From contig NC_080574.1 in assembly GCF_029962835.1 (NCBI RefSeq), positions 23,224,001-23,288,000 on the forward strand: a stretch of 64,000 bases of DNA, written 5' to 3'. The notes beneath the pieces are model-generated. The model was not told the DNA's origin. It did no database searches and saw only the letters and a list, made by a program, of their open reading frames with translations. Position numbers and translations under genes: made by a program. This DNA comes from Magnolia sinica (Eukaryota > Streptophyta > Magnoliopsida > Magnoliales > Magnoliaceae). Positions 7,401 through 56,979 of this stretch are shown here, in pieces. Numbering within the stretch: the stretch's first letter is position 1; the number at the start of each line of letters is the position of its first letter.

Positions 7401-9900
7401 TTTTTGTTGGTTTTGCATTTTTTCTGCTGGCTCATATAGATGAGATCATGGATTCTATTATGATGGAAACCTAGGTTTCCTTGCAAACAACCTGAAGCAG
7501 TGGTTTGCAGTCCTGGTCTAATAAGCAGCTTGTGGAAATTTTCCACACACCTGCCTTTGTTCCTCATACAGTCATACTTTCATAACACAAGTATAATATT
7601 GGCCTGAGGGTTTATGCTCCTTGCATTTGGCTAAACTCCTATTAGTTCTGCAGAGGGAATGTGCAAAGACGAAATCTGCTGAGATGATTGGCTTTGCAAG
7701 CTCTGCCATTTCAACCCTCAATGATGCAGAGCTGTCCATTACGGAACCAAAGGATTCATCATTGATTCACATGGATGCAGATCAAAGCTTCCTGCCTGTT
7801 CCTTTAGCCATCAAGGGTGCTGTCTTTGAGAGTTTTTCTAGACAGAACATGGGCGAATCCGAAACTGATGTTAAGAGTGGGATCCAACAGTTTATCAAGA
7901 GCAATTACGGGTTCCCAGCAAATAGTACTTTAGAGTTCATATGTGGGGACTCCCCACTGGCTCTGTTCAACAAGATGGTCCTTTGCTGCATCCAAGAAAG
8001 TGGCACTCTGCTCTTTCCTTCTGGCTCAAATGGAACTTACGTGTCTGCTGCCAAGTTCATGAAAGCTAACATCAGGAATATCCCCACCAGTCCAGAAGAA
8101 GGATTTAAGATTACGGAGAAGACACTTGCAGGTTTGCTTGGGACAGTAAAGAGGCCGTGGGTTTATGTTTCAGGGCCAACAGTTAACCCAACGGGCTTGC
8201 TTTATAGCAAGGAAGAGATCCAAGGAATACTGTCTCTATGCGCCAAGTTTGGAGCAAGGGTGTTGATTGACACTTCATTTTCAGGACTGGAATTCGAAAC
8301 AGATGGTTGGGGCAGATGGAATTTGGAAGACAGTTTATCAAAAATTACAGGCTCAGACTCTGGTTTCTGTGTGTCTTTGCTCGGGGGGCTGTCTTTCGAG
8401 ATGCTGACCGGAGGACTCTCATTCGGGTTTCTGGTTCTAAATCAGCCTCTTCTGATTGAATCATTTTATTCATTTCCCGGCTTGAGCAAGCCGGATAGCA
8501 CTGTTAAGTATGCTATAAAGAAGCTATTGGGTTTGCGAGAGCAGAAAGCAGGGATTCTATCTGAGGCTATTGCTGAGCAGAAAAAGATCCTGAAGAGTAG
8601 ATCTAAACGCTTAAAGGAGGTATATTCCCCTTTTATCCCTTTTCCTCTTTACAGCAGACAATGTTAAAGCTTTAAAGGTCTCGGTTTTGAAATTTTAGTC
8701 ATGCATTTTAGCTGCTAGGGCTTGGACTCCATGTTCTCTGTGTTTCTTCATTCAAGGCATAAAGTATTTTGGGGTGTCAACTGGCTGGGCCTGGGTTGGA
8801 GCCTGGATTTTGAACTGGTTCAACTGGGTCTTTCCCGCCGTCCTATTCAGCATTTTGATTTTTTTTTCCCGGCCCAGCTGAATGCTATTTTAATGGTTCA
8901 TGTGCCCTGTACTTTCTTCCCATTCCAAGGCCCTACAAGCCTCTCGAGCCCATTTTTCAAAATCTTGCTTATTGATTCAGAACTTGACCGAGTTGAGTTG
9001 GTCTGCCAGGCTTAGGATACTGATTCCTAACTTTGATTTTATGAGTCAGTTCTCCTTTCATTGTCCCATTTTAGTTGAAACTCAGAACTGTAAATCCTGA
9101 TTTCTGAGCTTTAGTTTTCAAATGGCGCTTCAACCTTAAAAGTAGCTAATCTTATTTGGAAGACCTCAAAATCATGATATTAAAAAACAGTGGGACTAGC
9201 AATGCAATACAGGGCTCTAATGACCGTTCTGAAAAACATGGTCCATAACAGGCCTGTAATGGCCGTTAGGTCCCCGTAACAGGCTGATACAGTTTCTTTT
9301 AATTAATTTATTTTATTACCGTTATAGGCCCATAATGGCCATAAGCCTGATCATTACAGCACTATTACCGTTATTGAATACCTTGCTCCAACTCCTAGCA
9401 AAACCAAGTGAACTTGACAGAGTTCCAAGTTGATCAGAAAGTTTTTAATGCTGCTTTCTCAGTAAATTGATATTTGGATAGCAATTTCCTACTTGAAAAA
9501 CATTCTGGGATGAGTTGCACTACTTTTCACACGTCTTTTCAGCTGACTCGTCCTTTTTCTTAATGTCCTTGAGAAACAGACGCTGAAGAGCTGTGGTTGG
9601 GATGCAATTGATTGCTGTGGTGGTGTTTCCATGGTTGCAAAGCCATCAGCTTATCTAGGGAAAACCCTCAAGATCAGCCACTCTAAAGGGTTGGACCCAA
9701 GCAGTGGCTCTTATGAAGCCAAGCTCACCGACTCCAATATCCGGGAAGCTGTTCTCTGCGCCACCGGTTTATGCATCAACAGCGGCTCGTGGACTGGCAT
9801 CCCGGGTTTCTGCCGCTTCACAATTGCCCTTGAGGACACTGAATTCGAACGGGCATTGGAATGCATAATCAGCTTCAAGAAGTTGGCTCTTGGCAATTAA
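4465..9900 (+). CDS. MMT: Methionine S-methyltransferase, C-terminal five exons (partial gene)
   Basis: MMT transfers a methyl group from S-adenosylmethionine to methionine, giving S-methylmethionine, a phloem-mobile sulfur compound; the enzyme is cytosolic. Exons read by splice consensus and continuous protein similarity are 4465-4599, 6125-6436, 6726-6905, 7654-8619 and 9580-9900, all phase 0, totalling 637 codons with TAA at 9898-9900. Family landmarks are VFPSRAVAIENALRLF, DEHLTRHLPKEWLTSLAIE, APRQSDLMIELIKKMKPQVV, LPSHAAILCGLVKNQ, HMDADQSFLPVP, GPTVNPTGLLYSKEE and ATGLCINSGSWTGIPGFCRF. This is the aminotransferase-like C-terminal part. Where PLP enzymes usually have their lysine, SLLGGLSFEMLTGG has none, as I recall for this family. 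The family is about 1,080-1,100 residues, so about 450 N-terminal residues, including the SAM-binding methyltransferase domain, are absent: either left of the window or lost. The visible exons have no stops or frameshifts. Family assignment is confident. Confidence 0.93.
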
Positions 9901-31377: not shown

Positions 31378-32344
31378 TTCAGCTAGGCACGGGACGATTC
31401 AACAAACTCAACTCGTCTGACTCGTTTAGATCCAACTCAATTCAAACCGAGCGGGTGAATCGATCCAAATTGAGTTGACTTCGTCCAATCCGAACTCAAA
31501 TCGAGTCGAGTTTAAGTCACCTAATAACTCGACTCGACCCGAAATCCAACTCGGTACTGACTCGACTCGATCCAAAACTTGACTCATACATATATGTTAA
31601 AAAAAAACTCAGATTTGACGTTTTAGATCTGAGATGCCGTATAGCTAATGGAGAGGCTGTAATTCTGGCAAGTGAATCTAGGTTTTGAGTTGTGATTTCA
31701 GACCGTGGATACTCGTTGCCCCTGACCCGACTCGATGCTGACTCGACTTGACTCGGTACTTGTGACCAGGTCAGACTCAATTTGGATTAGTCCAGGCCAG
31801 ACCCAAACTCAGATCGGGTTAGGCATGTTGGACTTGGTACCGAGTCGGGTAGAGCTGTACACGAGCAGGCTAAACTCGAGTACTCGATCGACTCCACTCG
31901 TCTGAGTTAGAGCAGAGTACGAGCGGGTTTCATCTACTCATTTAGATTATGAGTAGAGTATGAGTCTAGAGGTACTCGACTTAGTAATCGACTCGTACCC
32001 GAGTCACTCACCCAATCGCCCGTCATTTTCAAGCACCCGCTCGAAACCCTTCTTCCCTCCAGCGGCCGTTTGAACCTCCCCCTCCCCCTCTCTCTCTCTC
32101 AGCGCCGTCCAGCCGTCCCTCTTCTTCCATTTCTCTCTCTCACACTCGCCCGTCCCCTATCCGGCGGTGCTAGACCCCTAGACCCTGCCGCTCGTCCCTA
32201 CGGATAGTCCGGTGCCCCTGTCCAGTAACAGAGCTCCTCCCTGCCACTCGTCCGGTGCCGTAGCTCGTCCCTGCCAGGCTGCCACTCGTCCAGTCGTCCG
32301 TCATCGCCCTGCCCTGCACGCAGCTGTTGGTTGTTCCTGCCCAG

Positions 32345-32960
32345 CTCGCCCGGTAATGTGTAGGTTTGATTTTTGATTTTTAGAAATTGTTTAATATAGA
32401 TTTGGGATTAACCTGATATTTGTGTTTTCCCTAAATATTTCAAAATCAGAAAGAAACTTGAGGACGAGCAAGCTGGGCAGGAATGACTTGGGATTAACCT
32501 GATATTTAGAATTGGGATTAACCTGATATTTGTGTTTTCCCTAAATATTTCAAAATTAGAAAGAAACTCGAAGACGGGCGAGCTGGGCAGGAACGACTTG
32601 GGATTAACCTGATATTTGGGATTAACCTAATATTTATGTTTTCCCTAAATATTTCAAAATCAGAAAGTGATTTTTAGAAGCATGGTGTTGTCAGATTTAA
32701 TTGTTCAAAGCTTCACCAGTAACTCATTTTTTAGTCATTTTATGTCACCCATAATTACAGAAAATTGAATTTAAATACCAAATCAACTTTAATATCTCAA
32801 ATTAAAAATCAGAAAGTGATTTTTAGAAGCATGGTGCTGTCAGATTTAATGGTTCAAAGCTTTATCAGTAACACATTTTTTAGTCATTTTATGTCACCTA
32901 TAATTATAAAAATTTGAATTTGAATACCAAATCAACTTTAATATCTCAAATTAGTGTACA
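32345..32960 (+). repeat. Tandem repeats in the hAT leader
   Basis: Three units of about 105-110 bp built on GGGATTAACCTGATATTTG start near 32401, 32511 and 32616. Two units of about 149 bp built on AGAAAGTGATTTTTAGAAGC start near 32662 and 32811. They lie between the CT-rich leader and the transposase frame. Confidence 0.75.
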
Positions 32961-33918
32961 TATAGTTTTGGGATGAGAGTCAGGTGTAACAAAAGTATAG
33001 AAGTTATTGAAATACAAAGTTCCTCGAGTTTCTTTCTGATTTTGAAATATAGAAATATAGTTTTGGGATTAACCTAAATACAAATTGTTAATATAGAAAT
33101 ATGTTACTATAGAAATATGTTAATATAGAAATTATTAATATGTTAATTATTGTCCTGTACTATTCAAGTCCCATGCCCTAATAGTTATGTTTTCCATGTT
33201 TCTTAATTTACTTTATAAATGACAGTCTACTTGTTACTTTGTTAGTGTTGAATGTTACCACTTTAAAATGCCTTTGGTTTTTCATTTGACATTTTGTTAT
33301 TTATTAGCTAGATGATGAATGTCAATTTCAGCATGCTCATTTGTTTGCATAGATATGAATTATTTGTATTGTTCTAGTTGTAGACTTGTAGTATAGGATA
33401 ATCAGTTGCCCATTTGAGAATTTCTATGTTGCCGGACATAGATTCAGTGTGTTCTTGGATGCATAGAAATTGCTCAAATTATCCCTTTTTGGACAGTTCA
33501 GGGTTAGATTGTAATGTCTTCATTTATTCAAATTTAAATGCATGTCTGTTCTGGTTTCGTCTCTCCTTTTTCTCTCTGGATATATTTCATTTATTTATTT
33601 CCGTCATCAAATGTCCACACTTTGTGTTGATAATTGACATGGGAATCAAATTTAAGATTAATATATTCTGGAAAGATAAGGGGAGATGCTACGGGAATTT
33701 CGGCGTAGCATTTAAATTGAAAAATGAAGCATTACAATCCATCTAACTTTGAATGGGTGACTAATTTAGACAGTTAAGTAATTATGCCCGTCTAGCGTCT
33801 AGGACCCTAGGTATAGCCGTATAACATATCGAGAACTTTATTTTATAGATAACTTGTCAAGACGAAAGCCTAAATACCCCTGGAATGGGTGCATCGGCCA
33901 CATCTCCTCTAACCGTAG

Positions 33919-35855
33919 AGGATAGACACATCAACTGTATGTAAAGGGAAGAAGAAGAGATCAATAGTGTGGGATAATTTCAAAGACGTGACAGTTAACG
34001 GTATACAGAAGATAAAGTGTAATCACTGTAAAGGGTTATTCAGCAATATTTCAGGAGGATCTACGACACATCTAATTAGACATTTGATAACGTGTCCTAA
34101 GAAAGCAAGACTCCCTCCTCCCGGCCAACAGATGTTGTCATTTACAAAGTCAGAAGAAGACGACTCCCAAGGCATAGTGTCCACTCATAAGTTTGACAAG
34201 GAGAAGCTGAATGAGTGGTATGTTAGATTAGTGATTCTGGAAGAAAAACCTTTCAGAATGATAGAAAGTAAAGGGTTTACGACTTTCTGTTAATTCCTTA
34301 ACCCTCGGGCCAAGAATGTCTCCCGCGTCACAGTGCAGAGAGAGTGCTTGAAGATATACGCTAAGGAGAAGATGAAATTGAAAGAAGTTTTAGCTTCAGT
34401 GACCAGAATAACTTTGACTTCTGATTTATGGACGGCGTCCAATCAAAGAAAAAGATACATTTCATTAACCACTCACTATGTCGATAAGGATTGGAAACTA
34501 TGCAAGAGAATTTTGAACTTCTGCAACCTTCCTCCTCCACATATTGGTTTACTTATTTCAGATTGCATCTACAGTCGTCTAGAAGGATGGGGCATTGAGA
34601 AGAAAATTTCTACAATAACTTTAGACAATGCTTCAGCAAATGACAGTGTCATTTCATGCTTACGTAACCAGTTCAGGGCTACAGGAAATTTATTTTTTGA
34701 AGGAAAAATATTCCAGGTCAGATGTTGTGCCCATATTGTAAATTTGATTGTATAAGAAGGGCTGAAAGCAATCAACGACACTATAGAGAACATAAGAGAA
34801 AGTGTGAAATATATAAGGGGGTCGCCATCGAGACTAAGTGTATGGAATGACATCATCCAATATTTGCATGTGCCATCTAAAAAAACGTTGAAGTTGGATG
34901 TCTGTACACGTTGGAACTCGACCTATGAAATGTTAGATACGGTAATGGAATTACAGCTTGCATTTTCTGAATACGCGGCACGTGACAGAACGTATTCTTA
35001 GTTGCCGAGCACAGATGATTGGCCAAAGCACAACAAGTTCACACATTTCTCAAAGTTTTCTACGATTGCACAAATATTTTTTCTAAGAATCAGTATTCAA
35101 CCGCGAATCTGTTTCTTCCGTCTCTTTGGAAGATTAAGGATGCTTTACAGAAAAATGTCAGTGCGGGTCCAGATTTCATACGCCAGATGACAGTTGGTAT
35201 GAAGACGAAGTTCGATAAATATTGGGACGAATGTCATCTGTTAATGTCCTTGGCAGTTGTTCTTGATCTCCGTTGCAATATGGGATTAGTTAACTTTATT
35301 TTCATGAAGCTTTATCCTACTGAAAGAGCGGCAGCAGAGACGTCTATGGTTCGTCAAGCCCTTGAAGATTTATACAAATCGTATGTTATTACTTTAACTG
35401 CAGCGGGTGTTGATGAAAGTAGAGATGCCGATATTTCTGTACCTGGTAATCCGGATGTGCTAAATGAATACATATTATACTTGGCACAAGCATGAATGAG
35501 AGTTGATACTAAGGAATCATAGTTAGAAATGTACCTCAAGGAGCCAATCATAGTGCGATCTAAATTTGATGTGTTGGAATGGTGGAAGATGAAGGTTAGT
35601 GAATCAAAATACCCTACATTATCTGTGATGGCATGGGACATATTATCAATACCAATTTCAACAGTGGCATCAGAATCTGCATTCAGCATAAGGAGCAGGG
35701 TTGTGAGCAAGTATCGAAGCTCACTTTCGCCAAACACAGTTGAAGCGTTGATTTGTATGCAAGATTGGTTGCACCCGATATGGGGAGGAGATATGAATGA
35801 TGATGATGAAGAAGAGATTGAGATTCGTGACGAGTCTCTACCTGTAGATCAGTAA
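33919..35855 (+). pseudogene. hAT transposase, broken
   Basis: It would cut and paste the element in the nucleus. Domains in order: BED zinc finger (VWDNFKDV, then IKCNHCKGLFSN and THLIRHLITC; about 33967-34110); the DDE core with LTSDLWTA and ITLDNASAND supplying two catalytic aspartates; CCAHIVNLI; TRWNSTYEML; and the C-terminal dimerisation domain (EWWKMKVSESKYPTL, then STVASESAFSIRSRVVSKYR and VEALICMQDWL; about 35575-35780). Damage includes in-frame stops ending at 34293, 34755, 35001 and 35495 and a frameshift near 35020-35100. There is no ATG in frame before the finger; an upstream ATG at about 33884 is in another frame. The assignment to plant BED/hAT transposases is secure. Confidence 0.9.
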
Positions 35856-36131
35856 TTATTTTCGGTTTTTCGATTCTTTTTGGTTGAATGTTGAATGATC
35901 TGTAATATTATTTCACTGCAACTGCAGTCTGCAAACATGAAAGTGTTGGTCCTTTTGGAATGTGGTTTGGAAGACTTTGAATCTTTGATATTTATTTATA
36001 TATGCGATATGCCTGTTCATTTGCTTTTATTTTTGAATTTTGATACATTTATATTGCTTTCTTTTGTTCCTATATCAAGTTCAAATTATTTATTAATATT
36101 CTGATTTTTTTATTAAAAATTGAGTGTAGAT

Positions 36132-36848
36132 ATGTCGTCATCGCCATCGGACCCATCGACAAATATTTGGGACTATGCTTCCCTAGTTGAATCGCCACCA
36201 AGGTCTAGAAAAATAAAGATTAAGTGTGGTTTGTGTGGTGCAAAGTTTGTGAACAAGACTAATCGCTTTCGCTTACACTTGTCATGTCGAGGTGGTGATG
36301 CAAAACCATGCCCCAATGCCCCTAAGGATGTCCAAATTCTTTTTCAAGCTATGTTAGATTCGAATAGAAAACCTTCCACTCCATCCAAAACTTTTGCTGC
36401 TTCTGAATCTAGTACACGGATGACATCCACAAAAGATGCAGAGGAGGAAGCCAGATTAAAAGCTTTGGAGGAAGAACAATTCCAACTCGCCTTAAAACGC
36501 AGTATGGAAGATGTTTCTAGACTTTAGCGATACTTGAGTCAAAGACAACACGATGTTGAAGCAGGGTCGAGTTACTCGAGTACAACAAACAAAAAGAAGA
36601 AAAAGAGTAATAAATTCAAATTCTTGACTCGTCTCAGTGAATTTTATAAGGCATTGGCTACTACACTCAATTTTTCACATAAAGCAAGTTTGAAAATTTT
36701 GGTTCAAAGTGTAAAAGAGCACGAAGGAAATATCTCTTCGCCTTCTGACTCAGAGGAAGTAAACCAATTTGTATATGAAAAAATAGATAGCAGTTCCGAT
36801 GGATCAGATGTCAATGCAGGAAGACACTCCTCTTATGGAGGTTATTAG
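36132..36848 (+). pseudogene. Second hAT-encoded ORF: BED-like zinc finger plus UIM-like segment
   Basis: The ATG at 36132 opens a 131-codon frame to a TAG at 36525-36527. The same frame then continues open to TAG at 36846-36848, so a single nonsense change would separate an original frame of about 238 residues. Visible: NIWDYASLVESPP, then KIKCGLCGAKFVN with C32 and C35, FRLHLSCRGG with H49 and C52, and C60, a layout like BED fingers of plant DUF659-type hAT proteins. Residues 113-127 (EEEQFQLALKRSMED) fit the ubiquitin-interacting-motif pattern of an acidic run, Ala, then Ser four residues on and an acidic end. After the stop come a lysine-rich tract and an acidic-serine tail. It has no transposase core. 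It starts about 276 bp after the transposase stop and lies inside the termini. Function unknown; a DNA-binding accessory protein is one possibility, a fragment of another hAT another. Confidence 0.65.
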
Positions 36849-37430
36849 TTATAAATTGTCATTTTGAACAATGTAATGTAATTATGTGAATATGTTAATG
36901 TAATTATCGAAGTTTTTTAATCATAAATTATGTGCATTTTATGTATTTTATTGTTTCGTTTAACTTCGAATTCCAATTGACAATCGAATTGAAATTCAAA
37001 TTAATCGCAATTTATAACTCGAACTCGGCTCAAAGCTCGAACTCGTTACTCGAAAACCCTACTCGAATTGGACTCATATTCAGACTCAGACTCGAACTCG
37101 CCTCGAAAACTCGCACTCGACTCAACTCGATTTCTGCTCGTACTCGAACTCGCCAAGAAAACTCGGACTCGACTCGACTCATTTACTACTCGTACTTGGC
37201 TCATACTCGGGTGAGTAGACTACGAGCAGGGAGTCCATACTCGTTGGCCGAGTAGAGCCGAGTACGAGCAGCACTCTGGCATTAAGAGCCGAGTACAAGT
37301 AGGGCAATACTCGACTCGACTTGACTCGTGTACAACTCTAGAGTCGAGTCATGCCTATTTCAAAATTGGATCGAGTCGGGTTAGCCGTAACTTGGTTTGA
37401 ATCGACTTGATGCCCAGCTCTAGTGCTCAT

Positions 37431-38017: not shown

Positions 38018-39263
38018 TCATGTGTGGTTTTTACGCAGATCTTTGGATCTGTTTTGGAATCCTTTCCGACGACGGCTCTTCGTAAGATTATGGGGATTAA
38101 ACAATCTCTATGTGGTTCACCTCGTGATCGTTTTAGATCTTGGAATCGTGCTCTAACGAGTTTGTACAGTCAATGTCCAAACAAAGAAGATAAGTCGACC
38201 TTTAATGGCGAAATCACACCGGGGATTTATTTCTTCAAACTCTTTGCATTAGACGGTCCATATGGGACCCATGGAGCTTGTGGGGCCCACTTTTTGAAGG
38301 TTAAAGATTGAAAACCCAGTGGGTTTGAAGCTAGAAGCTTCCTGCTTCCGTCAACTCGTGTGACTGGAAATCTTGGCGCCAGATGCGCTTGTGCGATTCC
38401 TTTCAGTTGCTTGCATCCTAAGGCACATGGATGAATGGCTGAGATCAATTTGGATCGAGGTTTCACGAATTTGCAATTTACGAAAAGAAAAATGTCAAGT
38501 TTGGTCAAGATTTCTTGGTTGTCTTCACTACACCACAATCTGTGTGCTTGTCTTTTGAACGGTTGGGATACTCTCCTATAAACAGTCCGTATTTGCGAGG
38601 AAACCCTTCTTGGATTTGAGAGGAATCCAATTCCGACAAAGAGAGGAGAAAATAGAGTTTCGGTTTTGAATAAAATTGTTTGTGCGCATTCCCTGCAATC
38701 GGTTTCTGCACTAGGTTTTCTGTTGCTGCGCGGTGCTTTGCCTTGTGGCTTTTGATCACTTTTACAAAGCCAATTGGCTGGTTTGACTTATCCAGTTCTG
38801 AGATGTGTAGTGGCCCTCCAACGATCAGTTTCGATCGCTACATGTCGATCTAAATTGTGTAACATGACTGTTTTTTGAAGTTTTAATGGCTGATCTTAAA
38901 ATCTGACGGTCCGATCTTCTTAAAAATGGAAATTACTTGTCTTACAGGGTTTTTATGGATGTTTAGGTATGAGCAATCTTCCAAACCAACTGTCGGATTG
39001 TGTTTTAAGGTGTGAAGATGTATGGTATGGAATACTTGCACGACTACTGTACTACTTAAGTGTGGGGAGCTGCAGAACTCTTTCCTAGTATCTATGAATT
39101 CTAAAAATAATCATAGACTTGTCCCGAGGGGACTTGTAAACCGATAAGGTCGCCAGGAATCTTTATAAGCTACAGTTATTGCTTATGGGCAGGTGTGTTT
39201 CATCACTAGTTTCCAACCTAGTTCTTTAGTTCCCATGTCTTTCAGAGAGCTGTTTTCTTCATA

Positions 39264-41094: not shown

Positions 41095-42353
41095 GTTTTT
41101 TCATGCGTGGTTTTTACGCCGATCGTTGGATCTGTTTTGGAATCCTTTCTGACGACGGATCTTCGTAAGATTATGGGGATTAAATAACCTCTATGTGGCC
41201 CACCTGGTGATCGTTTTAGATCTCGGAATCGTGCTCTAACGAGTTTGTACAGTCAATGTCCAAACAAAGAAGATAAGTCCACCTTTAATGGCGAAATCAC
41301 ACTGGGGATTTATTTCTTCAAATTCTTTGCATTAGACGGTCCATATGGGACCCATGGAGCTTGTGGGGCCCACTTTTTGAAGGTTCAAGATTGAAAACCC
41401 AGTGGGTTTGAAGGTAGAAGCTTCCTGCTTCCCTCAACTCGTGCGACCGGAAATCTTGGCGCCAGATGCGCTTGTGTGATTCCTTTCAGTTGCTTGCATC
41501 CCAAGGCACATGGATGAATGGCTGAGATCAATTTGGATCGAGGTTTCGCGAATTTGCAATTTACGAAAAGAAAATTGTCAAGTTTGGTCAAGATTTCTTG
41601 GTTGTCTTCACTACACCACAATCTGTGTGCTTGTCTTTTGAACGGTTGGGATACTCTCCTATAAACAGTCCGGATTTGCGAGGAAACCCTTCTTGGATCT
41701 GAGAGGAATCCAATTCCGACAAAGAGAGGAGAAAATAGAGTTTCTGTTTTGAATAAAATTGTTTGTGCGCATTCCCTGCAATCGGTTTCTGCACTAGGTC
41801 TTCTGTTGGTGTGGTGTGCTTTGCATTGTTGCTTCTGATCACTTGTACAAAACCAATTGGCTGGTTTGACTTATCTAGTTCCGAGATGTGTAGTGGCCCT
41901 CCAACGATCGGTTTCAATCGCTACATTCGATCTAAATCGTGTAACATGAATGTTTTTTGAAGTTTTAATGGCTCATCTTAAAATCTGACGGTCCGATCTT
42001 CTTTAAAATGGAAATTACTTGTCTTATTGGGTATTTTTTTTAATGGATGTTTAGGTACGACACGAGTAATCTTCCAAACCAGCGTTTAGATTGTGTTTTA
42101 AGGTGTGAAGATGTATGGTATGGAATACTTGCACGACTACTGTACTACTTAAGTGTGGGGAGCTGCTAGATTCTTTCCTAGTATCTATGAATTCTGAAAA
42201 TGATCATAGACTTGTCGAGGGGACTTGTACACCGATAAGGTCCCCAGGAATCTCTATAAGCTACAGTTATTGCCTATTGGCAATTGTGTTTCATTTCTAA
42301 CCTAGTTCTTTAGTTCCCATATCTTTCATAGAGCTGTTTTCTTCGTATTTCTA
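41095..42353 (+). repeat. 1.25-kb direct repeat, copy 2
   Basis: Second copy of 38018-39270. It ends at a compound (TA)n(GA)n run (42353-42400), where copy 1 ends at (TA)n. The copies are about 3.08 kb apart start to start. Confidence 0.85.
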
Positions 42354-55637: not shown

Positions 55638-56979
55638 ATGCAGACATTCGTTATATGCGCCGTTACTCTCCTGCTTCTCGCCTTCACGTCGCCGCTAGAG
55701 GGGTCGCTGATTCCGTTACTGGACCGTCCGGGGAATGTCCTGTCGGAGCTGTGGCAGGACAGGTTCCCCGATCCGTTCCGTGTTCTCGAGCAAATCCCGT
55801 TAGGCATCGAAAAGGAAGAGCTGGCAGCCTTGCCCGCCAGGGTCGACTGGAAAGAGACACCCGAGGCGCACGTTATCATGCTCGATGTACCTGGTAAGTT
55901 TGTTGGGGCTTCCATTTGTATATATGAAATCCACTCCGTCCATCAGCTTCTATCATTGATTCTAACACTTTTGAGGCAAAAAATCAGCAAGATACACAAC
56001 TCAGGTGGACCACACCACGGGAAACAGTGGGAATGAGATGCTAACCATAGGTTCGTACGTCTGTGGGCTACCAAGGTGTGTATCTTTCCAAATCGGATTC
56101 GGCAGTGACCCCTGCCGTGGGCCCCACTATGATGTATGTGTTTTATCCATGCCTTTCTCATTTTAGAGCATGAAGTAGAAAATTAGGCATATTAAGATCT
56201 AAGGTGGACCACACGACATGAAACTGTGGTGATTGAATGCTCACCATTAAAATTTTCTTAAGGCCTGTAGTAATGTTTATTTGCCATCCAACTTGTTGAT
56301 TATGTCTGGTAGGCCTGAATGAAGGGAAAGCACAAATAACAGTTTGATCCAGAAGTTAGGTGGCTGGCAAGAAGTTTTTAATGGTGGCTGGCCGTTCAAT
56401 CATCACTCGTTCTTGTGGTGTGGTCCACCTGAGATTTGGATCTACCTCATTTTTGGGCTATTGCCCTAAAGTAAGCTAGCAAAATGGATGGACAGATGGA
56501 GGAGGGGTCACTACCGAAATATTTCATCAAAGCCGTTAACAGGTGTAATCCCACCCGAACGAAGTGAAAATACAAAAATAACCAGAACATCGGGCGGGCG
56601 ACAGCATGTGAATCTTGCAGGTGTGAAGATCGCGCGTGTTTTCCATGTGTATGTTGCAGGTGTGAAGAAAGAGGAAGTGAAGATCGAGGTGGATGAGAAT
56701 CGGGTGCTGCGTATAAGTGGAGAGAGAAAGAGAGAGGTGGAGAAGAAGGACGGGCACTGGCATCGAGTGGAGCGTTCTTATGGAAAGTTTTGGCGCCAAT
56801 TCCGATTGCCTGAGAATGTAAATTTGGAGAATGTGAAGGCTAGATTGGAAGATGGAGTGCTGACTGTTACCTTGGCCAAGCTGTCACCTGACCAGATCAA
56901 GGGTCCCAAGCTTATTAGCATTGAAGCCGAGGAGAAGGAGAAGCTTGGGGATGGTAGCCATAAGAAGGTTGAGCTTTGA
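55638..56979 (+). CDS. HSP22-ER-like: ER-localised small heat-shock protein (HSP22 class)
   Basis: ATP-independent chaperone of the alpha-crystallin family, holding unfolded proteins in the ER lumen under heat stress. Exons are 55638-55893 and 56660-56979 (GT-AG, phase 1), giving 191 residues. [20 protein letters not shown] is a signal peptide, followed by the N-terminal arm ([18 protein letters not shown]). The alpha-crystallin domain runs from about residue 69 to 165, with [54 protein letters not shown] and the typical GVLTVTL. The protein ends in KVEL, a KDEL-like retention signal. The 766-bp intron splits the domain at VPG/VKKEE and is mostly foldback-element sequence. A second acceptor at 56620 would add 13 in-frame residues. 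The promoter has a perfect heat-shock element, a G-box and a TATA box. No stops or frameshifts; the gene looks functional. Confidence 0.93.
55920..56515. mobile_element. Foldback element sequence forming most of the sHSP intron
   Basis: The intron contains a partial foldback copy (about 55925-56070; CCACTCCGTCCATC, GTGGACCACACCAC) and a fuller one (about 56096-56515). The fuller copy's ends TTCGGCAGTGACCCCT and AGGGGTCACTACCGAA are complementary. Inner words (CACATACATCATAGTGGGGC on the complement, GGTGTGGTCCACCTGAG) match the copies at 42-45 and 49-51 kb. Confidence 0.75.
56621..56659 (+). promoter_or_regulatory. Duplicated 3' splice site (alternative 39-nt exon extension)
   Basis: CTTGCAGGTGTGAAGA (acceptor ending at 56620) and GTTGCAGGTGTGAAGA (acceptor ending at 56659) lie in a 39-bp tandem duplication. 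Use of the first acceptor keeps the frame and inserts 13 residues ([13 protein letters not shown]) into the alpha-crystallin domain. The second gives the family-typical protein. Confidence 0.6.

Follow-up and report, generated by a model that had tools for sequence, protein, structure and literature searches.

Ac and Tam3, the textbook plant hATs, encode one protein each. A decayed Ac-like hAT element in a 64,000-nucleotide stretch of the Magnolia sinica genome (the window) seemed to hold two. The initial annotation had described, downstream of the transposase, a second plus-strand frame coding for a BED-like finger joined to a ubiquitin-interacting pattern. We asked whether this frame, ORF2, is a gene of the transposon, and what its product might do for the element.

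The window element and its second frame

The element occupies 31850-37340 and has 16-bp termini. Its left terminal inverted repeat, TAGAGCTGTACACGAG (31850-31865, plus strand), and its right one, TAGAGTTGTACACGAG (37325-37340, minus strand), both fit TAGAG(C/T)TGTACACGAG exactly and are the sole exact matches to it within the window, so that the clean termini of the initial annotation hold. An 8-bp target duplication is likewise present but is not perfect: the left copy, GAGTCGGG (31842-31849), and the right copy, GAGTCGAG (37341-37348), agree at 7 of 8 positions, in a GAGTC-rich flank. Both flanks (31700-31849 and 37341-37420) are rich in GAGTC/ACTCG, and the right one includes an end resembling TAGAGCTGGGCAT; the element may have landed inside another element with similar subterminal repeats. 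Flanks with repeats of this kind make the window's own target-duplication evidence weaker.

Behind the left terminus lies a 5' non-coding region of about 2 kb (31866-33918, plus strand) that includes tandem arrays with repeat units of 110 and 149 nt; one of five other copies checked (L009) has the same arrays. The subterminal 3' stretch (36941-37324) is rich in ACTCG/CTCG. The last 400 bp of the window copy contain 24 CTCG, against 2.66 per kb mid-element, and a CTCG/CGAG-rich subterminal trend also appears in all five other copies checked.

The transposase frame (33919-35855, plus strand) is Ac-like and decayed. Pfam searches with separate pieces of the frame identify a zf-BED domain (26.3 bits), the hAT-like RNase-H domain PF14372 (35082-35384, plus strand; 90.4 bits, E 9.2e-26) and the C-terminal dimerisation domain PF05699, Dimer_Tnp_hAT (35523-35771, plus strand; 104.9 bits, E 1.9e-30). 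The RNase-H-like and dimerisation domains and the short, 16-bp terminal inverted repeats are those of a hAT. Four stops and one frameshift had been counted in this frame; there are in fact five stops (34291, 34753, 34999, 35493 and 35520) and at least one frameshift near 35001-35019, and an alignment-based count gives five stops and two frame-breaking gaps.

ORF2 (36132-36848, plus strand) spans 238 codons, from its initial Met to a terminal GGY and stop, and has full-length homologues in other copies. It is interrupted, as described initially, by a single internal stop, a premature TAG at 36525-36527; 11 of the 20 copies that we fetched are open past this site to the end. The remaining two plus frames over 36132-36848 contain 13 and 19 stops. 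None of 2000 dinucleotide shuffles of 36117-36848 gave a plus frame with two stops or fewer, and an open run of 136 codons was reached in 7 of the 2000. When the whole element was shuffled and read in six frames, open runs of at least 136 codons arose in 38 of 300 shuffles; since such runs are common there, the length of ORF2 is by itself weak proof. The case for ORF2 is carried by homology and selection, not by length, and on these grounds ORF2 is a real gene belonging to the transposon. A chance frame is ruled out by the homologues in the genome, the shuffles of the stretch and dN/dS.

Residues 11-53 of ORF2 (36162-36290, plus strand) form a BED-type zinc finger. Cys32, Cys35, His49 and Cys52 are all in place, and what had been called BED-like passes the Pfam cut-off in the window copy (PF02892, 23.9 bits against 20.6). 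The scores of L035 (24.6) and L015 (21.6) are also above this cut-off, those of L030 of family B (20.1) and L068 of group C (16.5) below it; zf-BED is listed in 8 of 10 ORF2 members at E up to 10. An extra cysteine, Cys60 in CPNAP (36309-36311), is kept in L068, where Cys52 is replaced by Tyr, and is His in L035; Cys60 rather than Cys52 may provide the fourth zinc ligand. The ORF2 finger and the transposase finger share nearly no sequence (BLASTP 15.8 bits, E 0.092). ORF2 as a recent duplicate of the element's own transposase N-terminus was rejected on that same alignment.

AlphaFold models of the ORF2 protein are poor, with a mean pLDDT of 47 from one sequence and 41 from ten. A PDB sequence search with ORF2 alone returned weak matches only, some of them finger proteins, and an ORF2-profile search of the PDB reached the 26S proteasome subunit 4 at E 1.5 only, behind spurious-looking matches. 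Pfam gave no match to a Myb/SANT domain in ten ORF2 members and none to TET/JBP in the window copy or the same number of members. Viral contigs scanned with ORF2 and with the transposase C-terminus yielded no relative.

ORF2 across the hAT families of one genome

We searched a single genome, the window's own (1.84 Gb, 127 contigs), with the first 131 ORF2 residues as query, and scored the best 150 of 1972 first-look candidates. Many of these best 150 matches sit in open frames of about 240 codons. Twenty copies, chosen by ORF2 similarity (rows 2-22 minus one small contig), were fetched with 8.5 kb around them. All 20 have the transposase on the strand of ORF2 and about 270 nt upstream of it. 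Likewise, when the best 150 transposase C-termini were set beside the best 150 ORF2 rows, two independent lists, at least 92 of 150 were linked, with a median gap of 269 nt.

A terminus pair with three mismatches or fewer bounds 18 of the 20 fetched copies, and the elements are about 5.5-6.3 kb long. With the best-matching pair of candidate termini taken for each of 21 copies (window included), the target duplications agree at 8 of 8 positions in 14 copies, at 7 of 8 in four, the window among these, and at 5 of 8 in one; a terminus pair was not found in two of the 21. Across copies, then, the target duplications have the 8-bp length of the hAT superfamily. ORF2 runs for at least 235 residues before its first stop in 11 of the 20, with an ATG found in 10 of these 11. 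Both the transposase and ORF2 are open in one copy of the 20, which is the reference of the stop and gap alignment used below. Among 14 more diverged ORF2 copies, available as short stretches (L035-L048), seven run for 210 residues or more before a stop, three of these seven with no ATG found.

The frame also recurs where ORF2 did not guide the choice. Six hATs picked by transposase similarity, and less alike in the transposase C-terminus (L029-L034), all carry ORF2 downstream. Thus two of the outcomes that the initial annotation had named as fatal to its proposal did not occur: the other copies do not lack the frame, which is present in 20/20 ORF2-chosen and 6/6 transposase-chosen elements, and it is no remnant of a different hAT transposase inserted at this locus, as it recurs across copies and groups. 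A one-off insertion of a foreign transposase fragment is excluded by the same placement in many copies and in families B and C.

Five of these six elements (L029-L032 and L034), together with the longer L057, make up family B. ORF2 is present in all six fetched, runs for more than 200 residues before a stop in five, and is 56-58% identical by tblastn. Eight loci encode a 210-residue ORF2 product that does not differ from the query, which points to recent movement; family B has probably been active very recently. Its 3' end, where L032, L034 and L057 diverge, is CCCGTGTACACCCCTA, close to the terminus of family A; read in reverse, the family B terminus is TAGGGGTGTACACGGG, near that of family A. 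A 5' end with duplication was not found for L057.

Group C was reached via L053, and 12 of its loci were fetched by ORF2 (L058-L069, with L058 the L053 locus again). The transposase C-terminus lies upstream of ORF2 in 11 of the 12, and frames of 290-340 codons are many among the matches listed in a later genome search. First-look candidates for the ORF2-bearing families number 1972, 2642 and 2646, overlapping sets that are mostly unscored. Together the results show that ORF2 has been carried with the transposase, at a fixed downstream place, while at least three groups (A, B and C) diverged. L033 is a decayed third type, with an ORF2 42% identical. L033 and L053 both represent diverged, decayed ORF2 types, 42% identical overall and about 50% in the finger, a hint that the history of ORF2 is deeper than the groups analysed.

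Not every hAT of this genome has the gene beside its transposase. We inspected about 2.4 kb downstream of the transposase in eight other hATs, drawn from two or more related families and a distant one. ORF2 was absent from this span in seven (L049-L052, L054, L055 and L056) and present in L053 alone. L049-L052, L054 and L056 belong to related hAT families, several of them with transposase frames of 590-700 codons, and form a natural comparison set for the role of ORF2. In a tree of the dimerisation domain, built from 93 columns and weakly supported, carriers and non-carriers are intermixed, and the supported branches force at least two changes, which suggests loss, gain or relocation of ORF2 in some lineages. 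The tree took 22 distinct rows; stops or short matches excluded 20 further loci, so that group C is represented by the L053 locus alone. Since some close relatives showed no ORF2 next to their transposase, the gene appears to be accessory, one that helps rather than one indispensable for every such hAT. Gene-bearing families and families where ORF2 was not found share one genome, which makes the purpose of the gene directly testable.

Selection on ORF2 and the UIM-like segment

The dN/dS comparison that the initial annotation had proposed was made between families A and B, the sole between-family comparison, with group C outside it. For L015 against L029 (208 codons), ORF2 has a dN of 0.254, a dS of 1.063 and an omega of 0.24; three further A copies against B give 0.245-0.278. 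The two proteins differ by 73 amino-acid changes in the 208 codons (65% identity), and the differences fall 50/40/92 by codon position. Within family A, the median omega is 0.376 (105 pairs from 15 rows, broken frames excluded except the window), as is expected because much of the change there is post-insertion decay. The transposase has an A-B omega of 0.153 at 67% identity over 626 codons (the B copy, L057, shifts frame near its end). ORF2 and transposase have thus diverged together.

The A-B changes are unevenly spread over ORF2. Out of 192 spans of 17 codons, 21 have two amino-acid changes or fewer; 16 of these lie in the finger and 5 over the UIM-like segment, with none elsewhere. The 16 codons of the segment hold a single change and the other 192 hold 72 (nominal Fisher p 0.012). 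Purifying selection thus acts on ORF2 between A and B, and most strongly on the finger and the UIM-like segment.

Stop counts add nothing to this. Stops are less dense in ORF2 than in the transposase (1.42 against 4.79 per 1000 codons; 7/4927 and 66/13791), a biased comparison in copies picked by ORF2. Frame-breaking gaps do not differ in density between the two (1.22 and 1.23 per 1000 codons; 6 and 17 gaps). The ORF2-based choice of copies and the equal gap density make the lower stop density unusable as evidence of selection. The initial annotation had pointed to the smaller number of stops in ORF2 than in the transposase of the window; a single copy gives no such evidence, which comes instead from the comparison of families.

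UIM motifs consist of an acidic run followed by Ala and Ser four residues apart, within a helix. In ORF2, the UIM-like segment is EEEQFQLALKRSMED, residues 113-127 (36468-36512, plus strand). The fit to the ubiquitin-interacting pattern claimed for it stands in part: the segment reads as it had been given and lies in a conserved island, but it stays below the Pfam cut-off for UIM (PF02809, 21 bits). An insignificant profile score, which had been named as a ground for dropping the claim, is partly what we find, with 14.5-15.1 bits in the window and 20.3 in the best other copy. That copy, L035, scores 15.5 as a whole protein and 20.3 as a 24-mer (E 0.00044), and family B scores 15.0. In Pfam, the short segment of the window matches UIM or RAP80_UIM only; a scan of the first 131 residues of window ORF2 did not report UIM.

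Among 13 natural 24-mer segments, four match the Pfam UIM model and nine do not, and UIM is reported in one of ten whole ORF2 proteins; no match was obtained with any of 100 shuffles of two UIM-like segments (E up to 10). Three group C segments scanned singly gave no UIM match, despite a sequence of the type EEHDYKEAVKESLK in which Ala and Ser keep their register. Likewise, the A-type segment of L036 gave no match. The Ala of the motif is replaced by Ser or Thr in 2 of the 13 segments. The UIM-type spacing of acidic run, Ala and Ser is found in A and B and, by eye, in C. A helix is predicted over residues 100-143 (block pLDDT 68-80) in the first AlphaFold model only, that with the mean pLDDT of 47 and not the second with 41. 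A PDB profile search with the UIM segments found no UIM chain. Together the data indicate, at the level of sequence, that the segment is UIM-like and under selection.

Possible roles of ORF2 and its place among two-gene transposons

ORF2 is the second gene of a two-gene hAT lineage, and we consider it reasonably probable that it encodes a non-catalytic, DNA-binding helper that acts on the DNA of the element while docking ubiquitinated partners. The product of ORF2 would be a nuclear accessory protein without catalytic function, 210-240 residues long, or longer where group C frames are open. Its BED finger would attach to the element that encodes it, at repeats in non-coding or subterminal DNA; in hAT proteins, such fingers are described as taking part in the binding of terminal and subterminal repeats (PMC8097297, in excerpt). 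The helical UIM would then dock a ubiquitinated partner at those repeats, most likely chromatin or silencing machinery. As a result, the element would stay expressible, or its transposase would work better.

A more specific form of this reading makes ORF2 an anti-silencing factor, by analogy with the VANC proteins of VANDAL elements, which attach to non-coding DNA with tandem repeats in their own family and cause silent marks to be lost (PMC10398659, in excerpt). CG methylation of plant transposons uses MET1, for which ubiquitinated H3 is reported as a potential activator (PMC12474915, in excerpt). With its finger on the element's own repeats, the UIM of ORF2 might mask ubiquitinated H3, written by VIM-type ligases and activating the plant CG methyltransferase MET1, and family-specific loss of methylation would follow. 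We regard this form as improbable. If it were true, hATs would have arrived independently at a strategy comparable to that of VANC, one that works via ubiquitin.

The protein may instead serve transposition itself, as the Myb-like protein of PIF/Harbinger does, by bringing the transposase to the element ends or into the nucleus, with a UIM-like helix that is charged or coiled and binds no ubiquitin. The BED finger, the CTCG/CGAG-rich subterminal stretches in 5/5 copies besides the window, the co-divergence of ORF2 and transposase, the UIM score under the cut-off and the unmatched group C segments all suit such a role. A helix that is merely charged does not explain why UIM-type spacing is kept in B and, by eye, in C, or why segments match the UIM model when 0/100 shuffles do, and the related hATs that appear to have no ORF2 beside their transposase argue against a general need for a cofactor. 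We judge it unlikely, while giving it more credit than any other alternative. ORF2 could also limit its own element, by competing with the transposase for subterminal sites or by lowering transposase level via ubiquitin binding, and it would be equipped for this, being non-catalytic and sharing with the transposase a type of DNA-binding domain, the BED finger. However, with almost no sequence shared between the two fingers (15.8 bits, E 0.092) the same target is not implied, and the high copy number of ORF2-bearing families, estimated from overlapping and mostly unscored candidates, speaks against strong self-repression; we think such a repressor doubtful, on a par with the masking of H3.

Least credible of all is that ORF2 is mere cargo of the elements, either a captured piece of a host gene or what is left of another hAT transposase. 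In favour of such cargo, the ORF2 finger resembles, as we take it, the N-terminal fingers of other plant hAT transposases, and transduplication of genes by hATs is known in grapevine (PMC2528002, in excerpt). Against it stand the same place in three diverged groups, the omega of 0.24, the co-divergence with the transposase and the complete frames in many copies, which make it very improbable as the present status of ORF2. Capture may nevertheless be the ultimate origin of the gene.

That hAT elements normally encode one protein, as the initial annotation put it, needs qualifying, since hAT7 families of rust fungi contain an extra TET/JBP gene (PMC12730594, in excerpt). Like the present lineage, hAT7 is a hAT carrying an additional gene; unlike it, hAT7 is described with a TET/JBP-related enzyme and 7-bp duplications, where we find a non-enzymatic finger protein and 8-bp duplications. 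Compared with plant hATs such as Ac and Tam3, the elements have the same 8-bp duplications, short termini starting with TAGAG, RNase-H-like and dimerisation domains and transposase BED finger, but differ in the conserved second gene downstream. They are also longer, at about 5.5-6.3 kb, than the less than 5 kb given as typical of hAT elements (PMC10741241, in excerpt). In limited open-access literature (titles and abstract starts, with Repbase outside the search) we found no published hAT with a conserved BED/UIM second gene. Second genes in hATs are thus already known, and what appears new is a hAT lineage with two genes, the second for a new accessory protein.

Outside the superfamily, mudrB and the second proteins of CACTA elements are, like ORF2, non-catalytic partners in two-gene DNA transposons. 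PIF/Harbinger elements with their Myb-like second protein are two-gene transposons with a non-catalytic partner as well (PMC10741241, in excerpt), whereas ORF2 combines a BED finger with a UIM-like helix and has no Myb/SANT match in Pfam. With VANC, ORF2 may share the logic of an element-coded DNA-binding protein acting on tandem-repeated non-coding DNA of its own family (PMC10398659, in excerpt); VANDAL elements are Mutator-like rather than hAT, the UIM-like segment is found here, and the likeness is one of description, with anti-silencing by ORF2 hypothetical. CGGBP-type host proteins derived from hATs are similarly small, with a hAT-type BED finger and no catalytic core, but they are encoded by host genes, whereas ORF2 sits in mobile elements and multiplies with them (PMC8097297, in excerpt). 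A UIM for ubiquitinated histone H3 is reported in MET1/DNMT1 (PMC12474915, in excerpt), there beside a methyltransferase domain and here, as a UIM-like motif, in a transposon finger protein; a link between ORF2 and MET1 is a hypothesis.

A large hAT lineage that looks in part recently active and has a selected second gene means that the two-gene design arose not only in Mutator, CACTA and Harbinger but in hAT as well. Should the UIM prove functional, a plant transposon would count ubiquitin reading among its tools for dealing with the host.

The window holds further frames outside the element. Two long open frames on the minus strand, 38227-38787 and 41385-41870, lie about 3 kb apart and have nearly the same translation, the first with no Pfam match; they represent a local duplication or another repeat family. 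On the plus strand, 7597-8667 encodes an aminotransferase class I/II domain (PF00155, 41.8 bits), which we take to be perhaps that of a methionine S-methyltransferase. The plus-strand frame at 56470-56979 encodes an HSP20 small heat-shock protein (PF00011, 94.8 bits) and is probably a host gene.
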